This document shows, one piece after another, positions 1,950 through 39,719 of a stretch of 64,000 bases of DNA. This DNA is from Mumia xiangluensis. GTDB lineage: Bacteria > Actinomycetota > Actinomycetes > Propionibacteriales > Nocardioidaceae. Both the position numbers and the translations under genes were made by a program. The number at the start of each line of letters is the position of its first letter. The first letter of the stretch is position 1. The stretch covers positions 1 to 64,000 of the forward strand of contig NZ_WJYO01000002.1 of NCBI RefSeq assembly GCF_010994095.1, written 5' to 3'. Below the pieces are notes generated by a model. That model was not told where the DNA came from, did no database searches, and saw only the letters and a list, made by a program, of their open reading frames with translations.

Positions 1950-3347
1950 TCAGGAGAGGCCGACGGCAGCGCGGAACACTCCCGTCGGGTCCTGCTCTGC
2001 CATCACGTCCGCCAGCCGCTCGCGGTCGGCGAAGGAGGTGCTGCGGTTGAGCGTGTCCCACGCCGCGACCAGCGTCGAGCCCACCGCGCCCGCGGTCCAC
2101 GGTCGCAGCGCCGCGGCCACCTCCGCGAACGCGTCGCGGACCATCGGCTCCAGCGCCGGGTCGGGCAGGAGCGAGAGTGCGACGGCGATGTACTCGGACG
2201 GGACCTCGGTCATCAGGCCGGGACGACGTGCCGTCCGGCCCGCTCCGAGGTGACGCACCTGAACCTGGAGGATCGCGCCGGGCTTCCCAGCGACCTCCAG
2301 CAGCGCGTCGATCGTGGCGGGGGTCAGCTCGCCCAGCCCCATCCCGCTGTGCGCCGCCGGCATCGGGTCGACCGGCTCCTCACAGATGTCGCCCACCTCC
2401 GAGGCGGTCCGCTCGCCCACCGTGTCGTACACGAGGACTCCCGCGGCACGGATCGGCGAGAGCGCCTTCTCGAGCCCGGCGAGCCCCTCGGTGGTGCAGG
2501 ACTCGACCACCACGAACGACTGCCCGCGGACCTCCTCCGGCATGAAGTCGAGGTTCGGGACGTGGACGAGCGAGGCCCACAGCGAGATCGCCTCACCCGC
2601 GGTCCGGGTCGCGTCGGCGAACGCGTTGAGGACGCTGCGCGCGTCCGCGATCGGGAACAGCATCCGGCCGCCGGCGATGGCGGGCGCGGGGTGGAGGTCG
2701 ATCTCCACCGACGTCACGTAGGCGAGGTTGCCACCGCCCCCGCGCAGGGCCCACATCAGCTCGGCGTCGGTCTCGTCGTCGACGTGGCGTACGACGCCGT
2801 CGGCGTCGACGATCTCCGCCGACCGCAGCGAGTCGGCGCCCATCCCGAACGGACGGGTGAACCAGGAGTAGCCGCCCTGCAGGGTGTAGCCGACGACCGA
2901 GACGTCCGGGTTAGACCCGATCATGCCGGTGAGTCCGGTGCCGTCGAGGGCCGCCTGGAGCGCGCCCCAGCGCACACCTGCACCGACCCGAGCCGTACGG
3001 GCGTCGGTGTCGATCTCGATCGTGTCGAGGCCGCTGCTGCGGACGACGATGCTTCCGACCAGGCGTGCCGAGGCACCGTGGCCGCCGGCCTGCGGAGCGA
3101 CGGCGACGCCGTACGCACGACCGAACCGGACGGCGGCTGCGACGTCGGCGGCGCTCTCGGCGAGGACCACCGCGGAGGGCGACTGGTCGACCGCGAGGTT
3201 CCAGGCGAGGCTGACCTCCGCCCACCCGGGGTCACCGGGAAGGACGAGGCGGTGGCCGATCTGGGCCCGCAGGGCGTCGAAGTCGACGGCTCCGGGCTCG
3301 AGGTGACGACTCGGTCGGGTCTCGATCGTGTCGGTCAGTGTGGTCAT
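1950..3347 (-). CDS. FAD-binding oxidase of the berberine-bridge (BBE/PCMH) family
   Basis: A flavin-dependent oxidase of unknown substrate, 465 residues. The PCMH-type FAD domain covers about 35-215, and GGHGAS at 88-93 contains the histidine (His90) that normally binds FAD covalently. GGYSWFTRPFG lacks the second, cysteine attachment site of bicovalent members, so a single covalent link is expected. The C-terminus (ADRERLADVMAEQDPTGVFR) resembles the BBE tail. No signal peptide is seen, so it is probably cytoplasmic. The ATG at 3347 is preceded by AAGGAAG; longer frames upstream run through the operator. It is divergent from the SARP-like regulator and shares its control region, with four CTTGGG repeats 73 bp upstream. 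The reaction cannot be inferred from sequence. Confidence 0.85.
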   Translation of the reverse strand: MTTLTDTIETRPSRHLEPGAVDFDALRAQIGHRLVLPGDPGWAEVSLAWNLAVDQSPSAVVLAESAADVAAAVRFGRAYGVAVAPQAGGHGASARLVGSIVVRSSGLDTIEIDTDARTARVGAGVRWGALQAALDGTGLTGMIGSNPDVSVVGYTLQGGYSWFTRPFGMGADSLRSAEIVDADGVVRHVDDETDAELMWALRGGGGNLAYVTSVEIDLHPAPAIAGGRMLFPIADARSVLNAFADATRTAGEAISLWASLVHVPNLDFMPEEVRGQSFVVVESCTTEGLAGLEKALSPIRAAGVLVYDTVGERTASEVGDICEEPVDPMPAAHSGMGLGELTPATIDALLEVAGKPGAILQVQVRHLGAGRTARRPGLMTEVPSEYIAVALSLLPDPALEPMVRDAFAEVAAALRPWTAGAVGSTLVAAWDTLNRSTSFADRERLADVMAEQDPTGVFRAAVGLS

Positions 3348-3420
3348 GGTGCTTCCTTGCTTTCGTGGCCGACGGCTCTGTCGGCGTGGTGATGAACGAG
3401 TCCCACCGTGCGCCCGCGCC

Positions 3421-3460
3421 CTTGGGGAGTCCTTGGGATCGCCTTGGGACGCGCCTTGGA
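3421..3460 (-). promoter_or_regulatory. Array of four CTTGGG direct repeats (SARP/AfsR-type operator)
   Basis: CTTGGG(G/A) or CTTGGA begins at 3421, 3432, 3443 and 3455, giving spacings of 11, 11 and 12 bp. Direct heptamers spaced one helical turn apart are the known binding pattern of SARP/AfsR winged-helix regulators. Read toward the oxidase gene they are CCCAAG repeats. Ten bases past the last repeat is CACGGT, a candidate weak -10. The same repeat recurs at 9221-9249, before the exporter. The array lies between the oxidase and the regulator, so it may also affect the regulator's own promoter. Confidence 0.65.
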
Positions 3461-3509
3461 CCCGCCTCCGTGTGCAGTGAAAAGCCCGACCCGAGGTCCG
3501 CGCCGGACC

Positions 3510-3515
3510 TATGCT
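3510..3515 (+). promoter_or_regulatory. -10 box for a probably leaderless regulator transcript
   Basis: TATGCT ends 7 nt before ATG at 3523, so the predicted first base of the mRNA coincides with the start codon. No Shine-Dalgarno sequence precedes any of the three in-frame ATGs (3511, 3517, 3523). Confidence 0.45.
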
Positions 3516-3522
3516 CATGGCC

Positions 3523-6500
3523 ATGTGGCTCGCAGTCCTCGGCCCGGTGGAGGCACACCGCGAGCAGGCATCGCCGCCGGTCGCGCTCGGGACGCGCAAG
3601 CACCGCGTCCTGCTCGCTGCGCTCGCGCTCGGAGTCGGCAACGTCCAGAGCGTCGACACGCTGATCGACTACCTGTGGGGCGACTCCCCTCCCGATGGCG
3701 CGCTCGGCACGCTCCAGTCGTACGTCTCGGGTCTGCGCCGCGCGCTGGGCACCGCGCTCGCCCCGGGAGAGGAGCTGCCGCTCCGGACGACCGGTGGCGG
3801 CTACGTGCTCGACGCGAGCGCGGTCACCGTCGACGCCTCCGCCACCACGGCGCTCCTCCAGTCCGCGCACCGGGCACTGGGACCGCTCGCACGCGACGCG
3901 ATCCCAGGTGCCGGGGTGCTCGACGACGCGGTGCTCGAGCAGATCGGTCACGACCTCGAGACGGCGACGACGACCTGGCGCGGACGTGCGTACGACGAGC
4001 TGGCCGACCACCCTCAGGCGATGGCCGAGCGCGCCCGGCTGGACGAGCTGCGGCTCGTGGGGCTGGAGGACCTCGCGGTTGTACGTCTCGCGCGGGGCGA
4101 GCACGCGACGGTGGCCGCCGAGCTGGAGTCGCTCTCGACGCAGCACCCGTTGCGGGAGCGGCTGTGGACGCTGCGCGCCGTGGCGCTCGCTCGTACGGGT
4201 CGTCAGGCCGACGCGCTGGAGGTCGTGCGCCGGCTCACGACGACGCTCGACGAGGAGCTCGGGCTCCAGCCGACGGCGCTGGTACGGGACACGCAGACCG
4301 CGATCCTGCGGCAGGACCCGCTGGTGGCGTGGGCGGAGCAGCCGGTCCCCGCAGGCGCGGTGGGGGCTCCGGCAGCACCGACGGCGGCTGCCGTGGCCGG
4401 TGACCCCCCGGGTGTGCCGCCGAGCGCCACGACCGCGCTCTCCGCACCGGTCCCCCGGTCCGAGCACCGGCTCCCGACGTTGCCGACGTTGCCGCCGTGG
4501 CCGATGGTCGGGCGCGACGCGGAGCTCGGCGAGCTGCTGGCGAAGCTCGACCTGGCGGACGCCGGTGAGCCGCAGTTCGCCTCCGTCGTGGGCGAGCCCG
4601 GGATCGGCAAGTCGCGTCTGGTCGCCGAGCTGATGGCGCGAGCGCGCTCCCGGGGTGCGCACGTGCTCGTCGGGAGGTGCTCCTCCGACAGCGGCGCGCC
4701 GCCGCTGTGGCCGTGGGAGTCCGTCCTCACCGGCATCGGCAGCGTCGTGCAGGAGGCGAGCCCCGACGCCGCCGATCCCGACGGGGGGCGGTTCGCCGCG
4801 TGGGACCACATCTGCCGCCAGCTCCTGTCGGCCGCCGCCGACCAGACCGTCGTGGTGGCGCTCGACGACCTGCAGTGGGCCGATCCGTCCTCGCTGCGCG
4901 TCCTCAGGCACCTGTGCACGATCGCCGACCAGGCACGGCTACTGCTCCTCGTGACGATGCGCGCCCACCCCGAGCCGCGCGGCCAGCTCGCAGAGACCAT
5001 GGAGACGCTCGCACGACGCCACGCTGCGACCGTCCGCCTCCGGGGCCTGACGGTCGCCGACACCGCGCAGGTGCTCGAGGCCGTCGCGGACCATCCGGTC
5101 TCCGAGGGCACGGCGAGCACGATGCGCGACCGGACCGAGGGCAACCCGTTCTTCGTCGTCGAGTACGCACGCCTGCTCGCGGACGAGGGCGACCTCGACG
5201 CCGAGCCACCGACCGCGGTGTCCGACGTCGTACGCCGGCGGCTGGGGGCGGTGCCTGAGCCCACGCTCGACGTGCTCCGGCACGCCGCGGTCGTGGGCCG
5301 CCGGTTCGACCTGGGGACGGTGATGGCGAGCACCGGGCTCACCGACCTCGACGTCCTGGACCGCCTCGAGCCGGCCACCGCGGCGGGGATGCTGCGGGAC
5401 GAGGGCGACGACCGGTTCCGCTTCTCGCACGCGCTGGTGCGCGACGCCGTCTATGCCTCCCTGTCCCCGTCGCGTCGGCAGCGGGTGCACGGACGGATCG
5501 CCGAGACGATCGCCTCCGGACCGCAGGCGTCGGCCCGCGTGGCCGAGATCGCCCGGCACTGGGCGGAGGCCGGCGCCGACCACGCCGGGCAGGCGTGGAC
5601 CTCCGCGTACCGCGCGGCGCTCGCGGCGCAGCAGCGGCACGGCTACGACGAGGCGGCCGACCTCCTCCATCTCGCCCTCACCAGGATCGACGTCGATCCG
5701 GACGCGTCACCGGGCGACCGGTACGAGCTCCTGCTGGCCCTTGCCGACGCGACCCGGTGGGCTGCCCGGTGGGACGAGCTGACCGACGCCGTCGAGGAGG
5801 CGATCTCGGTGGCGGACGCGATCGGCGACACCGCCCTGCTCGCCCGCGCCGCGGTCGCCACGACGCGAGGGGCGCTGTGGCAGACGCGGACGTTCGGCGA
5901 GACCAGCGACACGATCGTCGACGCCCAGCGACGTGCGCTCGCCGCGCTACCGGCCGACGACTCCGCGATCCGGTGCACCCTGCTGATCAGCCTCGCGAAC
6001 GAGCTCTACTACACGGCGAGCGAGGAGGAGTGCCAGCAGCTCGTCACCGAGGGGCTGGACATGGCGCGCCGCCTGGCCGACGACGCGCTCCTGATGGACA
6101 TGTGCACGGCCGCCTTCATCGCGATCTGGCACCCGTGGACCGCGCGACAGCGGCTCGCGCTCGCCGACGAGGCCATCACGCTCGCCGGACGCGTCGGTGA
6201 CCGCAGGGTCGAGGCGATCGCGCTCGCGCAACGGGCGACGGCACGCAGCGACCTCGGCATGGTCGCCGCGATGGAGGAAGACCTCGAGCGGGGCCGAGAC
6301 ATCGCTCTCGAGCTCCAGCTCCCGTACACGCTCTGGTTCCTCGACTGCATGCGCATCCCGTGGCTCGCGATGCGCGGCGACCTCGACAGCGCGCGCAGCT
6401 CGCTGGACGAGCTCTTGCGGGTGGTCGACACCATCGCCGTACCCCACAAGTACGACGCGTTGAGCGGCCTGATGCTGGTGCTCGCGATCTGGCGCGGCCA

Positions 6501-6966
6501 GGCGCAGGACGAGGACGGCGACCGGGCCGACAGTGCGCTCGACGCGCTCGTCCGCACGTCCTCGGTCCCGATCCACATGGCGGCGGCCGGGTTCCTCGTG
6601 CGCCGCGGGCGGATCGACGACGCACGGACGCTGTACGCGCGGACCACCCCGACCATCGAGGACTCCAGCTGGATCGCGCCCATGATCTGGGGCTTCGGTG
6701 CCGAGGTCGCGCTCGCGCTCGACCTTCCCGACCTGGCCTCGAAGGCGTACACGCTCCTCGCGCCGCTGGCCGGCGGTGTGCTGAGCGCGGGATCGACGAT
6801 GGCGCTCGGACCGGTCGACGCCTACCTCGCCCTTGCCAGCGCCGCGTCGGGCCGGCCCGAGCAGGCATCCCGGCACGCCGACGACGCCCTCGCGCTCGCC
6901 GCGACGTGGAACATCCCGCTGGTCGAGGAGTGGATCCTCCACCAGCGGGATGCGTACGGGTTCTGA
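3523..6966 (+). CDS. AfsR/SARP-like transcriptional regulator with BTAD, AAA ATPase and TPR-like regions
   Basis: A large regulator of 1147 residues. The order is an OmpR-type winged-helix DNA-binding domain (about 5-95), a bacterial transcriptional activation domain (about 100-245), a proline/alanine linker, an NTPase domain with Walker A GEPGIGKS (about 357-364) and Walker B VVVALDDLQWAD (about 443-454), then a long helical repeat region resembling TPRs (about 700-1140). This is the layout of AfsR and LAL-type activators of secondary metabolism, in which ATP and a ligand or partner control DNA binding. The ATG at 3523 (MWLAVLGPV) is chosen because a -10 box lies 7 nt upstream; 3511 is an alternative. 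It is divergent from the oxidase and convergent with the MMPL gene, 6 bp away. The CTTGGG arrays are its likely targets (inference). Confidence 0.88.
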   Translation: MWLAVLGPVEAHREQASPPVALGTRKHRVLLAALALGVGNVQSVDTLIDYLWGDSPPDGALGTLQSYVSGLRRALGTALAPGEELPLRTTGGGYVLDASAVTVDASATTALLQSAHRALGPLARDAIPGAGVLDDAVLEQIGHDLETATTTWRGRAYDELADHPQAMAERARLDELRLVGLEDLAVVRLARGEHATVAAELESLSTQHPLRERLWTLRAVALARTGRQADALEVVRRLTTTLDEELGLQPTALVRDTQTAILRQDPLVAWAEQPVPAGAVGAPAAPTAAAVAGDPPGVPPSATTALSAPVPRSEHRLPTLPTLPPWPMVGRDAELGELLAKLDLADAGEPQFASVVGEPGIGKSRLVAELMARARSRGAHVLVGRCSSDSGAPPLWPWESVLTGIGSVVQEASPDAADPDGGRFAAWDHICRQLLSAAADQTVVVALDDLQWADPSSLRVLRHLCTIADQARLLLLVTMRAHPEPRGQLAETMETLARRHAATVRLRGLTVADTAQVLEAVADHPVSEGTASTMRDRTEGNPFFVVEYARLLADEGDLDAEPPTAVSDVVRRRLGAVPEPTLDVLRHAAVVGRRFDLGTVMASTGLTDLDVLDRLEPATAAGMLRDEGDDRFRFSHALVRDAVYASLSPSRRQRVHGRIAETIASGPQASARVAEIARHWAEAGADHAGQAWTSAYRAALAAQQRHGYDEAADLLHLALTRIDVDPDASPGDRYELLLALADATRWAARWDELTDAVEEAISVADAIGDTALLARAAVATTRGALWQTRTFGETSDTIVDAQRRALAALPADDSAIRCTLLISLANELYYTASEEECQQLVTEGLDMARRLADDALLMDMCTAAFIAIWHPWTARQRLALADEAITLAGRVGDRRVEAIALAQRATARSDLGMVAAMEEDLERGRDIALELQLPYTLWFLDCMRIPWLAMRGDLDSARSSLDELLRVVDTIAVPHKYDALSGLMLVLAIWRGQAQDEDGDRADSALDALVRTSSVPIHMAAAGFLVRRGRIDDARTLYARTTPTIEDSSWIAPMIWGFGAEVALALDLPDLASKAYTLLAPLAGGVLSAGSTMALGPVDAYLALASAASGRPEQASRHADDALALAATWNIPLVEEWILHQRDAYGF

Positions 6967-6972
6967 CGACGG

Positions 6973-9171
6973 TCAGCCGCGCGCGGGCTGTCCCTCGTCG
7001 AGCTCGTCGGGCTGGGCGGCGCCATCCGGTCGGGCAGCGCCGTCCACCTGGCCGGCGGCCGGCCGTACGGCGTCGTCCGGCGCGATCTCCGCCTCGACCT
7101 GCACGTGCGGGAGCAGGCGGTCCAACCAGGCCGGCAGCCACCAGTTCCAGCGCCCGAGCATGCTCATCGTCGCGGGGACGAGGACCAGCCGTACGAGGGT
7201 GGCGTCGAGTGCGACCGCGGCCGCCATCGCCACCCCGAGCATCTTCACCGTCACGGCGGACTCGGTGGCGAACCCGATGAACACGGCCACCATGATCGCC
7301 GCCGCACTCGAGATGACGCGGGCGCTCGAGGCCAGCCCGGTGACGACGGACCCCCGGGCGTCGCCGGTACGCAACCAGGCCTCGCGGATCCGCGAGAGCA
7401 GGAACACCTCGTAGTCCATCGAGAGCCCGAACAGGATCGCGAAGGTGAGGATCGGCACCCAGCTCGACACCGGCACGGTGTGGTCCATGCCGAGCAGGGA
7501 CAGGCCCCACCCGTGCTGGAAGACGAGCGTCACCACGCCGTACGCGGCGCCGATCGACAACAGGTTCATCGCCGCAGCCTTCAGCGGCACGACGACCGAC
7601 CGGAACATCACAGCCAGCAGGATCATCGACAGCAGCACGACGAATCCGACCACGACCCAGATCCGCTCGGACAGCATCTCCGAGATGTCGGTGAGCACTG
7701 CCGTCGTGCCCGTCAGCGCGACGCCGTCCGGCAGGACGTCGGCACGCATCGACGTGATCAGGTCGGTCGTCCGCTCGTCCTGAGGACCGAACGCCGGCTG
7801 GGCGTCGAACACCGCGATCGCCCCGTCTGCGGACGTGACGGGCTCCCCCACCGCCACGATGCGCGGATCCTCCGCGAGCGTCGTACGCAGCTGGGCGAGG
7901 TCGTCGCCGTCGACGGCGGCCAGGTCGGCGACGAAGGTCAGCGGACCGTTCGCCCCCGGACCGAACTCGTCGGCCACCACGTCGTACGACTGACGCGTCG
8001 TGAAGCTCGTCGGCTCCGCGCTGGCGTCCTGCGGGAAGGTCCGCATGCCCAGGGCGGGGGCGGCGAGCGCCACCATCACCACGAGCGCGGCGAGCGCCCA
8101 CGGCAGCGGGCGGGCACCGACGCGTGCCGCCCAGCGGGCAGTCAGCGTCGTACGGGCAGAGTCGGTGGTCCCTCCCTTGCGGGCCTTGCGCGAGACCAGG
8201 CGGTGGCCCGCCAGCCCGCACAGCGCGGGCACCAGCGTCAGCGCGGCCGCCATCACGCCGAGCACGGTGATGCCGGTGGCCATGCCGAACGCCGAGTACG
8301 TCGGCAGGCCGGCGAGCCCGAGCCCCATCAGCGACACGAGGACCGTCAGTCCCGCGAACAGCACCGCCCGCCCAGCGGTCGCGGTCGCGTGGCCCGCGGC
8401 CTCGGCACGGCGGTGGCCAGCCTGCAGGAACTCCACGAACCGGGTGACCAGGAGGAGTGCGTAGTCGATGCCGACACCGAGGCCGACCATCGTGGCCACG
8501 GTCGGTGCATCGCTGCTCACGTTGGTGGTCGCGGCGAGGAGCGTGACTCCCGCGGACCCGAGCGCGAGGCCGAACAGCGCGACGGCGATCGGGAGCCCGG
8601 CAGCGACCACCGACCCGAAGGTCAGGACCAGCAGCACGAGCGCGACTCCAACGCCGATCAGCTCGCCTCGGCCGTTCATCTCCATCGCCGTCCCGGGGAC
8701 CTCGCCGCCGAAGTCGACGTCGACTCCACCGAGATCGGCCTCGGAGACGGCATCCTCGAGCGGCGCGAGCTCGCCCATCACCTCGGTGTGGGTGACCGGG
8801 ACGTCGTAGCGGACCGAGAGCAGTGCGGTGTCGCCGTCGTCGGACAGGCGCGGCGCAGAGACGGCGATGACGTGGGGGACGTCGCCGACGCGGTCGGCGA
8901 GACGCTCCAGGTCGCCGGCAGGAAGCCGGTCGCCGTCGTCGTCGTGGACGCTGATCAGTGCGGTCGCACCGCCGGCGTCGGGCATGTGGGCGCGCAGCTG
9001 GTCGAGGCCGGTCTGGCCTTCGGCTCCGGGTACGTCCCAGTCGTCCTGGAAGGTGCCACCGACGCTCGAGGCGAGGGCGAAGACACCGACGAGGACGACG
9101 ACCCAGGCGCAGATCGTGCGCCACGGGTGAGCCGCGGTCGTGTGGCCGAGGCGGTAAAGCAGGGTGGACAT
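6973..9171 (-). CDS. MMPL-family (RND-type) membrane transporter
   Basis: A 732-residue integral membrane exporter of the MMPL/RND superfamily, which moves lipids, siderophores or antibiotics across the membrane using the proton gradient. The order is one N-terminal helix (TICAWVVVLVGVFALASS), a periplasmic loop (about 45-180), a cluster of helices (about 180-360), a second loop (about 380-530) and a last cluster (about 540-690) with GLSMDYEVFLLSRIREA, the MMPL signature. The C-terminal tail is short and acidic. GAGGAG lies 6 nt before the ATG at 9171. Three CTTGGG repeats 50 bp upstream match those before the oxidase, so it is probably co-regulated with that gene by the adjacent SARP-like protein. 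The substrate is unknown. Confidence 0.9.
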   Translation of the reverse strand: MSTLLYRLGHTTAAHPWRTICAWVVVLVGVFALASSVGGTFQDDWDVPGAEGQTGLDQLRAHMPDAGGATALISVHDDDGDRLPAGDLERLADRVGDVPHVIAVSAPRLSDDGDTALLSVRYDVPVTHTEVMGELAPLEDAVSEADLGGVDVDFGGEVPGTAMEMNGRGELIGVGVALVLLVLTFGSVVAAGLPIAVALFGLALGSAGVTLLAATTNVSSDAPTVATMVGLGVGIDYALLLVTRFVEFLQAGHRRAEAAGHATATAGRAVLFAGLTVLVSLMGLGLAGLPTYSAFGMATGITVLGVMAAALTLVPALCGLAGHRLVSRKARKGGTTDSARTTLTARWAARVGARPLPWALAALVVMVALAAPALGMRTFPQDASAEPTSFTTRQSYDVVADEFGPGANGPLTFVADLAAVDGDDLAQLRTTLAEDPRIVAVGEPVTSADGAIAVFDAQPAFGPQDERTTDLITSMRADVLPDGVALTGTTAVLTDISEMLSERIWVVVGFVVLLSMILLAVMFRSVVVPLKAAAMNLLSIGAAYGVVTLVFQHGWGLSLLGMDHTVPVSSWVPILTFAILFGLSMDYEVFLLSRIREAWLRTGDARGSVVTGLASSARVISSAAAIMVAVFIGFATESAVTVKMLGVAMAAAVALDATLVRLVLVPATMSMLGRWNWWLPAWLDRLLPHVQVEAEIAPDDAVRPAAGQVDGAARPDGAAQPDELDEGQPARG

Positions 9172-9220
9172 GTGTGCTCCTCATTCGTCTCTCTGACGAG
9201 GAGGAGCCTCGCGGTGACCC

Positions 9221-9249
9221 CTTGGGGATCGCTTGGGAACGGCTTGGGG
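9221..9249 (-). promoter_or_regulatory. Array of three CTTGGG direct repeats before the MMPL gene
   Basis: CTTGGGG, CTTGGGA and CTTGGGG begin at 9221, 9232 and 9243, exactly 11 bp apart, in the same orientation relative to the target gene as the array at 3421-3460. GAGGCT, ten bases beyond the last repeat toward the gene, is in the same place as CACGGT at the oxidase promoter and may be a -10. Confidence 0.65.
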
Positions 9250-9278
9250 CGCCTCCGGACCAGGTCCGGAGACGCCCC
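9246..9278 (-). terminator. Terminator of the sugar ABC operon
   Basis: GGGGCG (9246-9251) and CTCCGGACC (9253-9261) pair with GGTCCGGAG (9263-9271) and CGCCCC (9273-9278) around one mismatch and a one-base centre. The hairpin lies about 50 nt past the permease stop and overlaps the last CTTGGG repeat by four bases. Confidence 0.55.
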
Positions 9279-9325
9279 GCCGTCGTACGCACGCGGGGGG
9301 TCGCGCGTACGAGATCGTGCGGCCG

Positions 9326-10555
9326 CTAGGCCGTACCGCTGCTTCGCCGCGCTCGACGTGACAGCGAGTCGATCGTCACTGCGAGGAGCAGGACGATGCC
9401 GGTGACGATGTAGCGCACCTCGGCCTCGACGCCGATGAGGTTCAGGCCGCTCGTGATCGACTGGAGCACGAGCATGCCGAACAGCGCCGCGTACGCCGAG
9501 CCGCGCCCGCCGAACAGGCTCGTCCCGCCGATCACCGCAGCCGCGATCGCCATCAGGTTGGTGTCGGTGCCGCCGCTTGACTGCGCGACGGACTGGAGAC
9601 GGCCGGCTGCCAGGATGCCGCCGAGGACCGCGAAGGTCGAGCACGCCGCGAACACGGTGATGTAGACCTTGTTCACCGCGACACCCGCACGCCTCGACGC
9701 CTCCTCGTTGCCGCCGACCGCGAACACCGATCGGCCGAAGCGGGTCTTGCGCAGGATGAGGTCGACGGTGACGATCGCCGCCACCCAGAAGAGCGGCATG
9801 TAGCCGACGCCGCGGTCCTGGTTGAGGTACCACGCGCCGAACAGCATCGCCGCGACCATGACGGCGGAACGGATCACCGCTCCCTGGAACGACGGAGCCG
9901 AGAGGTTCGCTGCGCGGCGCCGCTGGATCGTGCGCAGCCGCGTCACCAGGTAGACCAGGCCGATCGCGACCGCGAGGACGTACGACGCCAGCGGGGACAG
10001 GAACTTGAAGTTCGCGAACTCGATGAGCCACGAGTCGACCGGCAGGTTCACCGTGCCGCGGCTCCCGAGCACCCACAGCTGCACGCCGAGGAACGCGAGC
10101 AGACCGGCCAGCGTGATGACGAAGCTGGGAACCCCGAACTGCGTGAAGAGCAGGCCGTAGAACAGCCCGATCGCCACGCCGACCGCGAGCGCCATCAGGA
10201 TCGCCGCCAGGAGCGGCCAGCCTTGGTAGACCAGCAGGACAGCCATGATCGAGCCGCCCACGCCGCTCACCGAGCCGACCGACAGGTCGATCTCGCCGAG
10301 GAGGAGGACGAGCACGATCCCGAGCGAGATCATGCCGATCGTCGCCGAGTCGAGGCTCAGGTTGACGAGGTTGCGCGAGGACAGGAAGCGGTCGTTCTGG
10401 AGGAAGAAGATCACCCAGATCACGACGAGGCCGATGATGACCGGGGCCATGCCCAGGTCGCCGGACCGGATCCGGCGTCCGAACGCGCCCAGTGCTGCGC
10501 GAGGTGTCCCCGCCTCGACGAGACGCTCGTCGCTCTGGTCGTACGCGGTGCTCAT
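9326..10555 (-). CDS. Sugar ABC transporter permease (XylH/FrcC type)
   Basis: The membrane subunit of a CUT2-family sugar importer, 409 residues with about ten hydrophobic helices. Family features include the LGEIDLSVGSV segment near residue 95 and the EAA-like loop ending GGNEEASRRAGVAVNKVYI (about 290-310), which contacts the ATPase. It is longer than RbsC because of an extra loop and helices in the middle (about 215-265), as in XylH. It is last in the operon SBP-ATPase-permease; its ATG overlaps the ATPase stop as ATGA, indicating translational coupling. The sugar is not certain; xylose or a related pentose is the best guess from similarity to XylH. Confidence 0.88.
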   Translation of the reverse strand: MSTAYDQSDERLVEAGTPRAALGAFGRRIRSGDLGMAPVIIGLVVIWVIFFLQNDRFLSSRNLVNLSLDSATIGMISLGIVLVLLLGEIDLSVGSVSGVGGSIMAVLLVYQGWPLLAAILMALAVGVAIGLFYGLLFTQFGVPSFVITLAGLLAFLGVQLWVLGSRGTVNLPVDSWLIEFANFKFLSPLASYVLAVAIGLVYLVTRLRTIQRRRAANLSAPSFQGAVIRSAVMVAAMLFGAWYLNQDRGVGYMPLFWVAAIVTVDLILRKTRFGRSVFAVGGNEEASRRAGVAVNKVYITVFAACSTFAVLGGILAAGRLQSVAQSSGGTDTNLMAIAAAVIGGTSLFGGRGSAYAALFGMLVLQSITSGLNLIGVEAEVRYIVTGIVLLLAVTIDSLSRRARRSSGTA

Positions 10556-11436
10556 GCGTCGCGCTCCTCGTCCGAGTCGGGTGTGGTGCCGGTGCCGGGC
10601 GCGTGGTGGCCGTCCGGCAGCACGGCGTCGGGATCGATGTCTTCAGGGGCGATCGTCGCCCCCGTCTTGTCGCGCGCCGCTCGCTCGGCGACCACGTTGT
10701 CGGACGCACCGGTGATCGCGGCCACGAGCTGCTCCGTGGTGACCTCGCCGATCTCGAACTCCGCGCCGTTGCGTCCGAGACGCAGCACGTAGATCCGGTC
10801 GGCGACCGCCTGGACGTCGGCCATGTTGTGGCTGATCAGCACCACGCCGAGCCCGCGCGAGCGCAGCCGCTCGACGAGGTTGAGGACCTCCGCGGTCTGG
10901 GCGACGCCCAGGGCAGCGGTCGGCTCGTCGAGCATGACGACCTTCGGCTCGCCCACGAGGCTGCGGGCGATCGCGACGGTCTGGCGCTGACCGCCGGACA
11001 GCGAGGCGATCGGGATGCGGACGGACGGGATCTTGGCGGAGAGCTGGCGGAGCAGCTCCCACGAGTGGCGCTCCATCTCGACCTCGTCCAGCACGCCGGC
11101 GCTGGTGCGCTCGTGCCCGAGGAAGAGGTTGGCGACGACGTCGAGGTTGTCGCACAGCGCGAGGTCCTGGAAGACCGTCGCGATGCCGAGCGACTGCGCG
11201 GCCTTCGGGCCGTTGATCGACACCTGACGACCGTCGAAGGTGATCTCCCCGCCGTCGGGCTGGTAGACGCCGGACATGATCTTGACGAGGGTGGACTTCC
11301 CTGCGCCGTTGTCCCCCACGAGTGCGACCACTTCTCCGGGTCGCACGTCGATGGAGACGTCGCTGAGGGCTTGCACGGCGCCGAAGCGCTTGTCGATGCC
11401 GCGCAGCGAGAGGATCGGCTGACTGCCGTCGTTCAT
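10552..11436 (-). CDS. Sugar ABC transporter ATPase (single-domain, XylG/FrcA type)
   Basis: Energises the sugar importer by hydrolysing ATP at the inner face of the membrane. The 294-residue protein has Walker A GDNGAGKS (about 38-45), Q-loop TVFQDLAL, signature LSGGQRQ (about 144-150), Walker B KVVMLDEPT and switch histidine LISHN. Only one ATPase domain is present, as in FrcA-type systems; RbsA and E. coli XylG have two, so this one should dimerise. The last 45 residues are an acidic, probably disordered tail. The ATG at 11436 is preceded by AAGGA; longer frames would run into the intergenic gap. It is followed by the permease with a 4-nt overlap and preceded by the binding protein, 82 bp away. 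Confidence 0.9.
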   Translation of the reverse strand: MNDGSQPILSLRGIDKRFGAVQALSDVSIDVRPGEVVALVGDNGAGKSTLVKIMSGVYQPDGGEITFDGRQVSINGPKAAQSLGIATVFQDLALCDNLDVVANLFLGHERTSAGVLDEVEMERHSWELLRQLSAKIPSVRIPIASLSGGQRQTVAIARSLVGEPKVVMLDEPTAALGVAQTAEVLNLVERLRSRGLGVVLISHNMADVQAVADRIYVLRLGRNGAEFEIGEVTTEQLVAAITGASDNVVAERAARDKTGATIAPEDIDPDAVLPDGHHAPGTGTTPDSDEERDA

Positions 11437-11518
11437 GGTGTCCTTCGCTGGTCGTGGGAACGGGAACGGTCCGGGTGGCCACGGCGAGCGTGACCACCCG
11501 GACCCGGGTGGCAGCAGG

Positions 11519-12577
11519 TCAGCTGAGGCCCGCGGCCGCACAGGCGTCCGCGTACTCAGCCGTGCAGATGTCTTCCACCGAGTAGAACCCATCGGCCACG
11601 ACGGTGTCGTTGACGTTGTCCGTCGTGACGACCACCGGGTCGAAGATGAACGACTTGACGCCCTGGAAGTCCGTCGTCTCGCCCACGTCGTCCCCGTTGA
11701 CCAGCGCGACCGCGACCTCGGCGGCCTTCTCGGCCTCGGTCTTGATCGACTTGTAGATGGTCATGAACTGGTCGCCGGCGACGATGCGCTGGATGGCGGC
11801 GAGCTCGGCGTCCTGGCCGGTGACCGGCGGGAACTTCGTCAGACCGTCAGCACGGAGGGCGGCGATCACGCCACCAGCCTGACCGTCGTTGGCAGCGTAG
11901 ACACCGGCCAGCGAGGCCGCGTCGATGTTGTTGAGCTGCGACGTCACGAACTTCTGCGCGTTGTCGGGGCTCCAGTCCGGGTTGTCGAACTCAGCGACGA
12001 CGTTGAGGCCGCTGGCGTCGATGGCCTTGTGCGCTCCCGTCTTGAACTGGGCGGCGTTCGGGTCGGTCGGCGCGCCGTTGAGCATGAGGATGTCGCCCGA
12101 ACCACCGGTCGCCTCGACGAGGGCCTCGCCCTGGAGCTCGCCCACACGCTCGTTGTCGAACGACATGTAGTAGTCGGCGCCCTCGATGAAGCGGTCGTAC
12201 GCGATGACCGGCACGTCGGAGGACTGGGCCGACTTCACGATGCCGACGGCGGCCTCGCTGTCGACCGGGTCGAGCACGAGAACGGCAGCGCCGTCGGTGA
12301 TCGCCGACTCGGCCTGCTGCTGCTGCTTCGAGGCGTCCTGGTCAGCGTTGAGGTACTTGACTTCGCAGTCGTCGCAGAGCTCCTGGACCTTCGCCTCGAA
12401 GAGCGGCTTGTCGAACGCCTCGTAGCGGGTGGTCTTGGTCTCGGGGAGCAGGAGCGCGATGGTCTTGCTGTCGCTGCTGCTGCCGCCTCCATCGTCGTCG
12501 CCTCCGCAGGCGCCCAGTGCGGCCGCGAGCACCACGACCGACGCCGCCCCTACAGCGGTGCGGGCAAACTTCTTCAC
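11519..12577 (-). CDS. Sugar ABC transporter substrate-binding lipoprotein (XylF type)
   Basis: The extracellular binding protein of the importer, 352 residues. A signal peptide (KK then a hydrophobic core) ends in the lipobox LGAC, with lipidated Cys24 followed by a glycine/aspartate/serine linker. The mature part is a periplasmic-binding-protein-1-like sugar binder: IALLLPETKTTRYEAFD at the N-lobe, ITDGAAVLVLDPVD, VPVIAYDRFI, and AANDGQAGG in the hinge region. The GTG at 12577 is chosen because GGGAGGA precedes it and the signal peptide starts there. It is the first gene of a three-gene operon reading from the promoter at 12633-12661 and is divergent from the ROK repressor, its likely regulator. 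Confidence 0.9.
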   Translation of the reverse strand: MKKFARTAVGAASVVVLAAALGACGGDDDGGGSSSDSKTIALLLPETKTTRYEAFDKPLFEAKVQELCDDCEVKYLNADQDASKQQQQAESAITDGAAVLVLDPVDSEAAVGIVKSAQSSDVPVIAYDRFIEGADYYMSFDNERVGELQGEALVEATGGSGDILMLNGAPTDPNAAQFKTGAHKAIDASGLNVVAEFDNPDWSPDNAQKFVTSQLNNIDAASLAGVYAANDGQAGGVIAALRADGLTKFPPVTGQDAELAAIQRIVAGDQFMTIYKSIKTEAEKAAEVAVALVNGDDVGETTDFQGVKSFIFDPVVVTTDNVNDTVVADGFYSVEDICTAEYADACAAAGLS

Positions 12578-12632
12578 GTTTCCTCCCCAGGAAGATGATG
12601 TGACGCAGAGAACTCCACGTCCGTCGATCCAC

Positions 12633-12661
12633 AGTCTTGGCATCAACCGAGAAATCGTCAA
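12633..12661 (-). promoter_or_regulatory. Promoter of the sugar ABC operon
   Basis: On the minus strand TTGACG (12661-12656), 17 bp, then AAGACT (12638-12633), predicting a start near 12626 and a 49-nt leader. The -35 sequence, with the bases after it, also occurs in the divergent repressor promoter (TTGACGATTT in both). Confidence 0.5.
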
Positions 12662-12695
12662 GTTCTGAACATAAGAGCGTTGCAGAACCGAAACA

Positions 12696-12744
12696 TTCAC
12701 GTGAAAGGTTCACCTCTTGACGATTTGCCAAATCCGACTAGGTT
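12696..12744 (+). promoter_or_regulatory. Leaderless promoter of the ROK gene with operator-like palindromes
   Basis: TTGACG (12717-12722), 16 bp, TAGGTT (12739-12744), then 6 bp to the ATG at 12751, so the mRNA should start at or next to the start codon. A perfect 10-bp palindrome TTCACGTGAA lies at 12696-12705. An ATTTG-C-CAAAT inverted repeat at 12723-12733 fills the gap between -35 and -10. Either could be the repressor's own operator. Confidence 0.5.
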
Positions 12745-12750
12745 GACCCC

Positions 12751-13884
12751 ATGCGTCCCACCGGATCGACGTCAGCGCTGCGCTCAGCGAACCTGGCGCG
12801 TGTCGTGACGGTGCTCCGAACCGACAGCGAGCTGAGCCAGGCAGAGATCGCCCGACGGACCGATCTCGCGCCCGCAACCGTCTCCAACATCGTCCGCCAG
12901 CTGGTCGCCAGCGGGCTCGTCGAGACGGCCGGGAGCGGCGGTCGCGCGGGTCTCACCGTCAGCATCGCGCGTGGCGCCGGGCTGGTCGCAGGCATCGACT
13001 TCGGCCACTCCCACCTCGAGGTCGCGCTCGGGGACCTCGCGGCCCGACCGCTGATCACGTCGCGACGCAAGCTCGACAACGACCACGCGTACGGCGACGG
13101 GCTCGCGCTCGCCGACGAGCTCCTCGACTCGCTGCTGACCGAGCTCGGCGAGGACCGCTCGCACGTGCATGCGGCCGGGCTGGGGCTGCCCGCCCCGATC
13201 ACCAAGGACGGGCGGATCACCGCCGGGTCCATCCTTCCCGGCTGGGTCGGCGTCGCTGCCGCCGACGTCGCGTCGAAGGCGCTCCAGATGCCCACGCTCG
13301 TCGACAACGACGCCAATCTCGGCGCGCTCGCCGAGCACAGCGACCACCCCGAGGTCAGCACGCTCGCCTACCTCAAGGTGTCGTCGGGCATCGGGTGCGG
13401 CCTCGTCCTCGACGGCACCCTCTACCGCGGCGGTCTCGGCACGGCCGGCGAGCTCGGCCACATCACGCTGGACGAGACAGGGCCCCTCTGCCGGTGCGGC
13501 AGTCGCGGCTGCCTCGAGGCGTACGCGGGTGGCTCCGGCCTCGTCACCCAGCTGCACAGCCGGATCCCGGACCTGGCCGTCCACGACCTCGTCGACCTCG
13601 CCGACGCCGGCGACGCCGGTGCGCGCCGGCTGCTCGAGGACGCCGGGCGTGCGCTCGGCCAGGGCTCCGCCATCCTCGCCAACCTGCTGAGCCCCGAGCT
13701 CATCGTCGTCGGCGGAGACCTCGCGTGCGGCATCGTCGTCGACGGGATCCGGGACGGGCTCCGGCGTCACGCGGTCGACGGGCTCGGCGGCGAGATCGCG
13801 GTCCGGGTGTCCGAGCGCGGCGACCAGGCGTCGGTCGTCGGAGCGCTCGTCACGGCGCTCGACGCCGTCGCGCTCCCCCTCTGA
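12751..13884 (+). CDS. ROK-family transcriptional repressor (XylR type)
   Basis: A 377-residue repressor that probably senses a sugar. An N-terminal winged helix-turn-helix (about 12-70; SQAEIARRTDLAPATVSNIVRQL) is followed by a ROK sugar-kinase-like domain. The ROK domain shows GIDFGHSHLEVA (about 83-94), GLGLPAPI, DNDANLGALAEH, GCGLVLDGTLYRG, GELGHI and the zinc-binding CRCGSRGCLE (about 248-257). It is divergent from the sugar ABC operon, so repression of that operon relieved by the transported sugar or its phosphate is the likely role. The start is supported by the leaderless promoter. It is convergent with the DsbA-like gene across a 31-bp tandem repeat that includes its stop codon. Confidence 0.88.
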   Translation: MRPTGSTSALRSANLARVVTVLRTDSELSQAEIARRTDLAPATVSNIVRQLVASGLVETAGSGGRAGLTVSIARGAGLVAGIDFGHSHLEVALGDLAARPLITSRRKLDNDHAYGDGLALADELLDSLLTELGEDRSHVHAAGLGLPAPITKDGRITAGSILPGWVGVAAADVASKALQMPTLVDNDANLGALAEHSDHPEVSTLAYLKVSSGIGCGLVLDGTLYRGGLGTAGELGHITLDETGPLCRCGSRGCLEAYAGGSGLVTQLHSRIPDLAVHDLVDLADAGDAGARRLLEDAGRALGQGSAILANLLSPELIVVGGDLACGIVVDGIRDGLRRHAVDGLGGEIAVRVSERGDQASVVGALVTALDAVALPL

Positions 13885-13945
13885 CGTCTGGCGTCAGGCG
13901 ACGTCCGCCGTGCTCTGACGTCTGGCGTCAGGCGACGTCCGCCGT
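13881..13945. repeat. Two tandem 31-bp repeats, each with a hairpin, between convergent genes
   Basis: Identical 31-bp copies begin at 13881 and 13915 (period 34). Each contains CTGACG, five bases, CGTCAG, so each can form a short stem. The pair fills the whole 60-bp gap and includes both flanking stop codons (13882-13884 and 13945-13947). It may serve as a two-way terminator. Confidence 0.7.
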
Positions 13946-14634
13946 CAGACGACCTCGCTGCCGAGCATCGCCTCCAGCTCGGCGGTCGTCGGGATCTGCT
14001 CGAGCGGGCGACCGTCGACGACCACCGCCGGCGTGCCCGAGATCGCCTTGAGCCCGCGTTCGGACAGGTCCGAGACGAGGTCGGCATGGACCTCGTCGCG
14101 GATGCAGGCCTCGGTGCCGTCGTCGCCGAGGTCGTCGGCGAGGTCGACCAGCTCGTCGTCGGACATGCCGCCCGGCTGCTGGTTCTCGAGCAGCGAAGCG
14201 ACGTACGCCTCGTACGCGGCTGGGCCTCCCGCGGCGGACACGCACAGGGCGGCGTTGACGCTGCGGGCGGACGCGCGGTCGGTGCTGCCGTTGTCGAGGA
14301 ACGAGACCAGGCGGTACTCGAGGGTGATCGAGCCCGCGGCGAGCCGTGCGGCCAGCAGCCGTCCCTGGTCGGCGGCGAACGCGCCGCAGTGCGGGCACAG
14401 CGGTTCGACGTAGACGGCGACCGCGACCGGGTCGTCCGGATAGCTCCCGGTCGGGTCGAGGTCGTGCGCGGTGACCACGATCCCGCCGTCTGCCGTCAGC
14501 GGAAGGCTCGCTCCCGCGGTGCCCCACGCGCCGCCGCCGGACTGCTTCACCACGTCCGCGGCGCTCCCGCACGAGACGAGCAGCAGGGACAGGAGCGCGG
14601 CGGCGAGGCCGGGAAGGAGCCGGGTGCGGTGCAT
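13945..14634 (-). CDS. DsbA-like thioredoxin-fold lipoprotein
   Basis: A probable extracytoplasmic thiol-disulfide protein, 229 residues. A signal peptide ends in the lipobox LLVSC (Cys22). The thioredoxin-fold domain carries CPHC at 80-83 after VAVYVEPL, and GTPAVVVDG near the C-terminus supplies the cis-proline. An inserted helical region (about 100-190) is as in the DsbA/thioredoxin_4 family. The ATG at 14634 is chosen over one at 14643 because AGGATGAG lies at a workable distance; the earlier ATG would touch the Shine-Dalgarno sequence. The preceding glycosylase gene ends five bases upstream, so the two are probably co-translated. The redox partner is unknown. Confidence 0.83.
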   Translation of the reverse strand: MHRTRLLPGLAAALLSLLLVSCGSAADVVKQSGGGAWGTAGASLPLTADGGIVVTAHDLDPTGSYPDDPVAVAVYVEPLCPHCGAFAADQGRLLAARLAAGSITLEYRLVSFLDNGSTDRASARSVNAALCVSAAGGPAAYEAYVASLLENQQPGGMSDDELVDLADDLGDDGTEACIRDEVHADLVSDLSERGLKAISGTPAVVVDGRPLEQIPTTAELEAMLGSEVV

Positions 14635-14639
14635 GGCGC

Positions 14640-15221
14640 TCATCCTCGCGCAGCGTCTGGTGTGCCGGCACGGGGGCTCCGGCGGTACGCCGACACGGTG
14701 GGGTCGCCGGTCAGCCAGAACCGCCAGGGCACGTCTGCCGCCTGTGAGACTCCCACCCTCGGGCCGCAGCTCACCGCCGCTGCGGGCCCGGCGGGACGGC
14801 GCAGCACGACCTCGGGTCCGGCGAGCGCGGCGCCGTTGTGCGCGAGCGCGAGGCCGAGTGCGCGGGTGAGGTTCGCCGGCCCGCGGGCGAGACGGACGTC
14901 GGGCACGTCGGTGCCGCGCCGGATGCGCGCGAGCTCGATGCCGGCGACGACCTCGCCGGCTCGCAGCAGCACCGCCGAGGCGTCGCCGTCCTTGCCGACG
15001 ACCACGTTCGCGCAGTGGTGCATCCCGTACGACAGGTAGACGTACAGCACGTCCGGCGGGCCGAACATGATCGCGCTGCGCGGCGTCGGTCCCCGCGCCG
15101 CGTGGGACGCCGGATCACCGACGCCGCCGTACGCCTCGACCTCGGTGATCCGGACGCTCACACCGTCGTGGGTGAGCGTCGCGCCCAGCAGGGCACGTGC
15201 CTCGGTCTCGACGGTGTCCAC
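14640..15221 (-). CDS. mpg: 3-methyladenine (alkyladenine) DNA glycosylase, AAG family
   Basis: Removes alkylated purines from DNA as the first step of base-excision repair. The 193-residue AAG-fold protein shows ITEVEAYGGVGDPASHAARG (about 26-45; catalytic Glu and the Tyr-Gly region), RSAIMFGPPDVLYVYLSYGMHHC, and GPANLTRALGL. Length fits the family. The GTG at 15221 gives the conserved N-terminus VDTVETEARALLGATL, but the ribosome site (GGGCGAC) is weak and a start further upstream would cross the inverted repeat. It lies after argH; in Mycobacterium this gene is also near argH and tyrS. Confidence 0.88.
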   Translation of the reverse strand: MDTVETEARALLGATLTHDGVSVRITEVEAYGGVGDPASHAARGPTPRSAIMFGPPDVLYVYLSYGMHHCANVVVGKDGDASAVLLRAGEVVAGIELARIRRGTDVPDVRLARGPANLTRALGLALAHNGAALAGPEVVLRRPAGPAAAVSCGPRVGVSQAADVPWRFWLTGDPTVSAYRRSPRAGTPDAARG

Positions 15222-39588: not shown

Positions 39589-39719
39589 TTGCGCGTTCCT
39601 CCCATCCGGACTTTCACCGTCGGTCCTGGAGTTCCACCAGGTCAACCAGTCACCCGAAGGCTCGTGGCTCGCGGACTGTCACCGCCGGCTCGGAATTGCA
39701 CCGACCCCGGAGCACGCAA
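39589..39719 (-). ncRNA. FMN riboswitch (RFN element)
   Basis: On the minus strand the sequence carries the conserved RFN blocks in order: GGGGTCGGTGCAATTCC, CCGGCGGTGACAGTCCGCGA, GACCTGGTGGAACTCCAGG, GACCGACGGTGAAAGTCC and GGATGGGAGGAACG. The P1 stem is closed by TTGCGTGCTCC and GGAACGCGCAA with two wobble or mismatched positions. It lies 98 nt upstream of ribD and should lower rib operon expression when FMN is plentiful. No U-rich terminator follows, so translational control is more likely. Confidence 0.95.

Follow-up and report, generated by a model that had tools for sequence, protein, structure and literature searches.

A large SARP regulator in Mumia xiangluensis and the 11-bp repeat arrays that may place an oxidase and an exporter under its control

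The window analysed here is a stretch of 64,000 nucleotides at the start of contig NZ_WJYO01000002.1 of Mumia xiangluensis (GCF_010994095.1), from an assembly of 4.62 Mb in 9 contigs that is 98.6% complete. It contains a regulator gene with an oxidase gene divergent from it and an exporter gene convergent with it:

1950..3347, minus strand: FAD-dependent oxidase, 465 residues (PF01565 over the cut-off; PDB matches)
3523..6966, plus strand: SARP-type regulator, 1147 residues (Pfam Trans_reg_C, BTAD and AAA_16; PDB relatives; Walker A motif)
6973..9171, minus strand: MMPL-family exporter, 732 residues (PF03176, E 1.8e-74; MmpL3; Asp-Tyr pairs)

The regulator begins with the OmpR-type winged helix and BTAD domain that mark the SARP family (PF00486, Trans_reg_C, and PF03704, BTAD), followed by an AAA_16 domain, all over their Pfam cut-offs, and has a Walker A motif, GEPGIGKS, at residue 357. 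Residues 1-270 matched EmbR (E 1.2e-27) and AfsR (E 3.4e-25) in a phmmer search of the PDB; residues 301-1147 matched no solved chain at E 0.001, and the long C-terminal part had no Pfam match. A first-pass annotation of this DNA described an AfsR-like regulator of 1147 residues between two repeat arrays. Its length and position hold, but the likeness to AfsR is limited. The protein lacks the AfsR-type pairing of an NB-ARC-type NOD with TPRs, in that no NB-ARC or TPR model was found at E 0.001 (a divergent TPR region is possible), and the NCBIfam AfsR model covers residues 3-286 only, far below its cut-off. With an AAA_16 ATPase in place of any NB-ARC match, the regulator is by its domains nearer to the SARP-LAL class of PimR, with which we compared it by description only, than to AfsR. 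As in that class, a SARP part is joined to an ATPase half without a LuxR HTH (no LuxR-type HTH model matched). The seat in, and control of, an antibiotic cluster that also belongs to the class was not seen among the nine neighbouring genes.

The closest solved relative of the oxidase is mitomycin radical oxidase (9r43, E 1.9e-51), followed by EncM (E 1.2e-40). The phmmer alignment to the former extends over residues 36-460 of 465, at an identity that is low as judged by eye, and includes His 90, at a position that we take, from EncM, to be that of the flavin-linking histidine. Mitomycin radical oxidase protects its host, and the likeness hints at detoxification. The exporter has an MMPL domain (PF03176) and two Asp-Tyr pairs, at 236 and at 586, which in MmpL3 have a role in proton relay; MmpL3 is also its PDB match (E 7e-48). 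The best NCBIfam match of the oxidase (BagG/FevA2) and that of the exporter (TIGR00833, actII) both fall below their cut-offs.

Nine neighbouring genes were examined, out to 18.8 kb, with tyrS on one side of the module and, on the other, a sugar ABC transport and ROK set, a DsbA-like protein, a methylpurine glycosylase, argH and argG. None of the nine has the look of secondary metabolism, all being housekeeping, transport or repair genes. The start of the window is the start of the contig, which ends beyond tyrS. An operon of the oxidase with its downstream gene was considered and rejected; that gene is tyrS, found there in 5 of the 41 regions compared below, all within the genus.

Two repeat arrays precede the oxidase and exporter genes:

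3421..3448, minus strand: operator before the oxidase, CCCAAG three times in 11-bp steps (CTTGGG on the plus strand), from exact sequence and searches
3455..3460, minus strand: degenerate fourth unit, TCCAAG (CTTGGA on the plus strand), 12 bp from the third unit
9221..9248, minus strand: operator before the exporter, CCCAAG three times in 11-bp steps, from exact sequence and searches

On the plus strand CTTGGG starts at 3421, 3432 and 3443 and again at 9221, 9232 and 9243, in exact steps of 11 bp. Four such units had been claimed before the oxidase and three before the exporter. The three on the exporter side are all present and three of those on the oxidase side stand, but the fourth, at 3455, reads CTTGGA and is offset by 12 bp rather than 11. 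The common orientation toward the targets is confirmed, both arrays being read on the minus strand with CCCAAG as the unit. The exact pair CTTGGG-N5-CTTGGG occurs four times in the window against 0.00 expected from shuffles; with two mismatches the pair is not unusual there (5 observed, 2.54 expected). A genome-wide search found the exact pair nowhere else in the assembly, its 4 matches all lying at the two arrays, and the reversed-pattern control matched once in the whole assembly.

Three hexamers near these arrays and the regulator start resemble -10 elements:

3405..3410, minus strand: CACGGT, putative -10 for the oxidase, separated from the operator by 10 bp
9205..9210, minus strand: GAGGCT, putative -10 for the exporter, separated from the operator by 10 bp
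3510..3515, plus strand: probable own -10 of the regulator gene, TATGCT, 7 bp before the ATG at 3523

Read toward the target, both promoters have the same order, namely CCCAAG repeated three times every 11 bp, then a gap of 10 bp and a weak nAnnnT hexamer. The earlier reading of this hexamer as nAnGnT, 10 bp past the last unit, is true of both promoters, but the fourth base varies in relatives and the motif relaxes to nAnnnT. When arrays that had been found without using the -10 were read by eye, nAnnnT stood at exactly 10 bp in 21 of 22. It is there in all 9 divergent rows and in 12 of the 13 on the convergent side, which include L177 with its hemerythrin gene; the miss is L178. This reading took in 22 of 24 arrays, and the two left out, L180 and L193, both have nAnnnT at 10 bp in the full scan. 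With the hexamer set at -12 to -7, the two promoter-proximal units would occupy -39 to -34 and -28 to -23, inside the two repeats of the AfsR box. Direct repeats of 11 bp at a short fixed distance before a weak -10 are a feature of SARP targets. In the AfsR paper the repeats lie 8 bp before a weak -10 (PMC10936776), as against 10 bp here, and the 2-bp difference is a matter of where one places the end of the unit.

The regulator is present in all six genomes of the genus. A genome-wide search of these for the whole structure, with at most three mismatches, gave 12 matches (11 distinct) covering 6/6 genomes, against 0 for the reversed control, and by position the matches precede only the MMPL gene of the module (6/6 genomes) or its FAD orthologue (5/6). 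In G038 the region read (L166), which begins 2 kb before the regulator at a contig end, holds no FAD gene and the exporter site only. Identity between species is 90-95% in the hexamers, 74-75% in the spacers and 39-49% in the 10-bp gap; the A and T of the -10 are 100% identical, which is partly built in, as the scans reward those bases. The first-pass annotation had made its idea hinge in part on the repeats being kept before orthologous oxidase and exporter genes. They are kept in these six genomes, and the idea survived this test.

Across the family, the search that guided the choice of regions had matches in 33 of 149 genomes, and 40 regions were taken, 39 for these matches (some regions hold two listed matches) and one for the exporter of G021, which is on a different contig from its regulator and was counted without it (L168). 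Left out of the region counts were G050:C1:740197, G053, G070, G086, G124 and G142, as well as G067:C13:337096 (L217). The exact CTTGGG triple has 10 matches in 8/149 family genomes (control, 0/149), and each of the 10 lies ahead of one of the module's MMPL, FAD or hemerythrin-HHE genes. A full scan of the 41 regions (the window and the 40) at a score of at least 17 returned 47 sites, of which 45 are distinct, two being register shifts of a neighbour; the reversed sequence gave 2 sites and ten shuffles gave 0-5. Forty-one of the 45 precede an MMPL exporter, FAD oxidase or hemerythrin-HHE gene and four precede other genes (in L180, in L188 and two in L197), and in 8 of the 41 regions no site reaches score 17. 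The comparative search thus found the architecture recurring across the family beside the regulator, with MMPL, FAD or hemerythrin genes as its partners.

Outside the genus the threshold was reached before 24/40 MMPL, FAD or HHE genes versus 3/362 others (Fisher p 6e-25, a value that ignores relatedness). Gene calls in these regions are mechanical. MMPL starts were called too far upstream in L164, L174, L181 and L184, so that per-gene counts are low and the full scan recovers the sites; in L172 and L199 the target genes were missed by the gene caller and the reading was checked separately. The optimum outside the genus is again a spacing of 11 and a gap of 10; among the 40 genes, other gaps at spacing 11 reached the threshold in 5-9, other spacings in at most 2 and 25 permuted motifs in at most 2. 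The spacing of the arrays and their distance from the -10 are constrained, and the operators belong to the neighbours of the regulator.

These controls bear on whether the arrays could be chance or low-complexity repeats, a reading that has some appeal in that the CTTGGG triple occurs elsewhere in bacteria and several of seven such contexts resemble longer tandem repeats. With the shuffled, reversed and permuted controls all against it, and with conservation at a fixed promoter position refuting it, we consider that reading practically dismissed.

Hemerythrin-HHE genes stand beside the regulator, with operator and -10, in L171, L177, L180, L182, L188, L190-L193, L198 and L199, the domain being confirmed in L177, L188, L198 and L199 and the remainder assigned by clustering. 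Judging from these promoters, hemerythrin may be a third target class in addition to the oxidase and the exporter. In L180 a site at 7227 on the minus strand (score 21) precedes an open frame of 2396 residues that resembles a secreted repeat protein and is possibly an extra target. The same region has, at 8119-14905, a tandem pair of regulator copies, the second with an internal TGA.

The position of the oxidase-side array between two divergent starts, with CTTGGG on the plus strand reading toward the regulator, could suggest that it serves mainly the regulator gene, by autoregulation, or both divergent genes. We regard this as improbable. None of the 41 regulator genes has an operator on its own strand at the threshold, the fixed-distance -10 is on the oxidase side, the second array of the window lies 2.2 kb past the regulator end, and the one species without the oxidase at the locus is also without the array there. 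Since TATGCT lies 7 bp before its ATG, the regulator gene is probably transcribed independently of the arrays from a leaderless promoter of its own; TA-rich boxes were seen by eye just ahead of the regulator start in several relatives. The promoter of the regulator gene itself thus seems not to be among those that the arrays control.

It is even less probable that another regulator binds the arrays. Only four BTAD proteins were found in the source genome, so that there are three besides the regulator to choose from, and binding by the adjacent one is a prediction. Against a different binder stand the confinement of all 10 exact triples in the 149 family genomes to the module and a unit spelling that differs among regulator groups.

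We therefore favour, at a probability of about 0.8, the reading in which the regulator is a large SARP activator with the oxidase and exporter genes as direct targets, acting through the repeat units at promoters that would lack a -35 element and presumably gated by its ATPase half. Conservation and homology support the small activator-controlled regulon that had been proposed from the window. In this scenario monomers of the regulator would line up along one face of the helix, the N-terminal domains of each occupying one CCCAAG unit of the 11-bp series. The place of the afs box (-40 to -19) would be taken by the two units nearest the -10, which would also substitute for the absent -35, with the third contributing cooperativity, and the bound regulator would recruit RNA polymerase to the weak nAnnnT -10. 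Activity would presumably be gated by the C-terminal ATPase half in response to a signal that it senses. Binding, activation, polymerase recruitment and position relative to the start site are what we infer by analogy with AfsR and PimR.

As for the output, the first-pass annotation pictured one protein oxidising and the other exporting a compound, as may be the case. We lean, at slightly less than even odds, toward tolerance of a redox-active toxic compound, with oxidase and exporter working in parallel; we favour this because the oxidase resembles a self-protection enzyme, an exporter is present, hemerythrin genes occur in exchange for the other targets and the neighbours are of the kind described. 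The same wiring could instead be biosynthetic, the FAD enzyme being an EncM-like tailoring oxygenase and the MMPL protein exporting its product. EncM as second closest solved relative of the oxidase, the BagG/FevA2 and actII matches (both below cut-off) and the activation of antibiotic production by SARPs in the cited papers all speak for it. The character of the nine neighbours, tyrS and the sugar transport to argG set, speaks against it. So do relatives in which the locus lacks the oxidase or exporter, or has hemerythrin substituted under the operator, which would be odd for a fixed pathway. We consider biosynthesis the less likely alternative to tolerance.

Among proteins with solved structures, EmbR of Mycobacterium (PDB 2fez) is the closest to the DNA-binding and BTAD part of the regulator, and it differs in having an FHA domain where the Mumia protein has an ATPase half. 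EmbR is a SARP-like regulator outside antibiotic clusters. DnrI, by comparison, is a small SARP of the daunorubicin cluster. It is said to bind the exporter and resistance genes drrAB/drrC, and is in this respect similar (a title cited in PMC10972967).

The AfsR box at the afsS promoter of Streptomyces coelicolor consists of two 11-bp repeats at -40 to -19 (PMC10936776). The Mumia module shares with it the SARP domain (E 3.4e-25), direct repeats of 11 bp, the inferred register of -40 to -19 and a weak -10, CACTGT at afsS and CACGGT or GAGGCT here. It differs, so far as that source describes AfsR, in having AAA_16 and no NB-ARC or TPR match instead of NOD and TPR domains, three units of another sequence, Gly in place of Arg 92, and an oxidase and an exporter as targets (PMC10936776). 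PimR, SanG and PolR likewise join a SARP part to an ATPase half without a LuxR HTH (PMC5930380, PMC3367932). The PimR operator, too, is described there as having three units in a divergent intergenic region, built of heptamers that end in CAAG (CGGCAAG for PimR, NCCCAAG here) and are set apart by 4-bp spacers. That operator is clear of the -35 and belongs to a single regulator gene in the pimaricin cluster, whereas here the operators overlap the -35 position and precede an oxidase and an exporter (PMC5930380, PMC3367932). SARPs with 11-bp repeats are already known, and it is the spelling of the operator, the targets and the setting that differ here. Among the papers listed, none links SARP regulators with this module, a weak negative as subscription journals are poorly covered.

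The spelling of the unit varies by regulator group. In L169, L172, L178 and L187, whose regulators have YVAG in the recognition helix, CCCCAG-type units replace CCCAAG. The base-contacting Thr 88 and Arg 92 of AfsR align with Ser 66 and Gly 70; given that Arg 92 is Gly 70 here, recognition would not be transferable from AfsR and the contacts must differ. By class of residues 69-70, SG goes with C at operator position 2 in 69/93 units, AR with G in 15/27, and SV and SA with T in 9/12, and AG goes with C at position 4 in 11/12. Contrary classes with C at position 2 are AH (3/3), SQ (3/3) and AS (5/6). In an information scan residue 59 ranked highest for position 2, where residue 70 came fourth, and residue 69 came second for position 4. 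This covariation, uncorrected for shared ancestry, is only suggestive, and in view of the contrary classes and the rank of residue 59 we do not claim a recognition-helix code as proof of binding.

We also entertain a broader conjecture, a little more loosely than the tolerance reading. A whole lineage of large SARPs may consist of dedicated one-component tolerance switches rather than activators of antibiotic clusters, each coupled through a shared promoter grammar to one or two effectors (McrA-like oxidase, MMPL exporter, hemerythrin-HHE), and with paralogues kept apart by the spellings CCCAAG, CCCCAG, CTCAAG and TGCAAG matched to their recognition helices.

In the order, 3 of 196 genomes have the exact structure, all three within the family, and it was not found outside the family among them. 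The regulator is present in 7 of 57 sampled order genomes at E 1e-80, two of them outside the family. In G183 an FAD gene has CCCGAG, CCCAAG and CCCAAG units with GACTGT. In G171, where the scan missed what was seen by eye, a hemerythrin gene has two units with GACCGT, and the divergent gene, which has no Pfam match, has two CCCAAG units with GATGCT. Regulator relatives near an FAD gene in L215 and L216 have no operator at the threshold used. The CTTGGG triple was rejected as a stand-alone marker, there being at least 118 stretches with it across all bacteria, mostly non-actinobacterial among those listed. A comparison of the three window proteins with these stretches turned up a single distant FAD match (L083) but neither the regulator nor the exporter, in a scan from which close relatives of the source genome may be absent.

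In the cited papers, large SARPs are activators of antibiotic production, whereas the regulon suggested here is small and apparently closed. With its exactly defined operator and predicted start sites, the locus also supplies natural variants on which specificity can be studied. What the ATPase half may sense becomes assayable, by seeking the compound that induces the oxidase and the exporter, and hemerythrin-HHE proteins become tied to a similar kind of switch.

Two further elements were noted in the window. An inverted repeat at 9238-9284 on the minus strand, after an ABC permease gene, has a folding energy of -42.3 kcal/mol (z -5.1) and overlaps the distal operator unit; though without a T-run, it is possibly a terminator that insulates the exporter promoter. 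In L163, L166 and L168 palindromes of different sequence seem, by eye, to occupy the corresponding place. Elsewhere, at 39590-39718 on the minus strand, lies an FMN riboswitch (93.5 bits).
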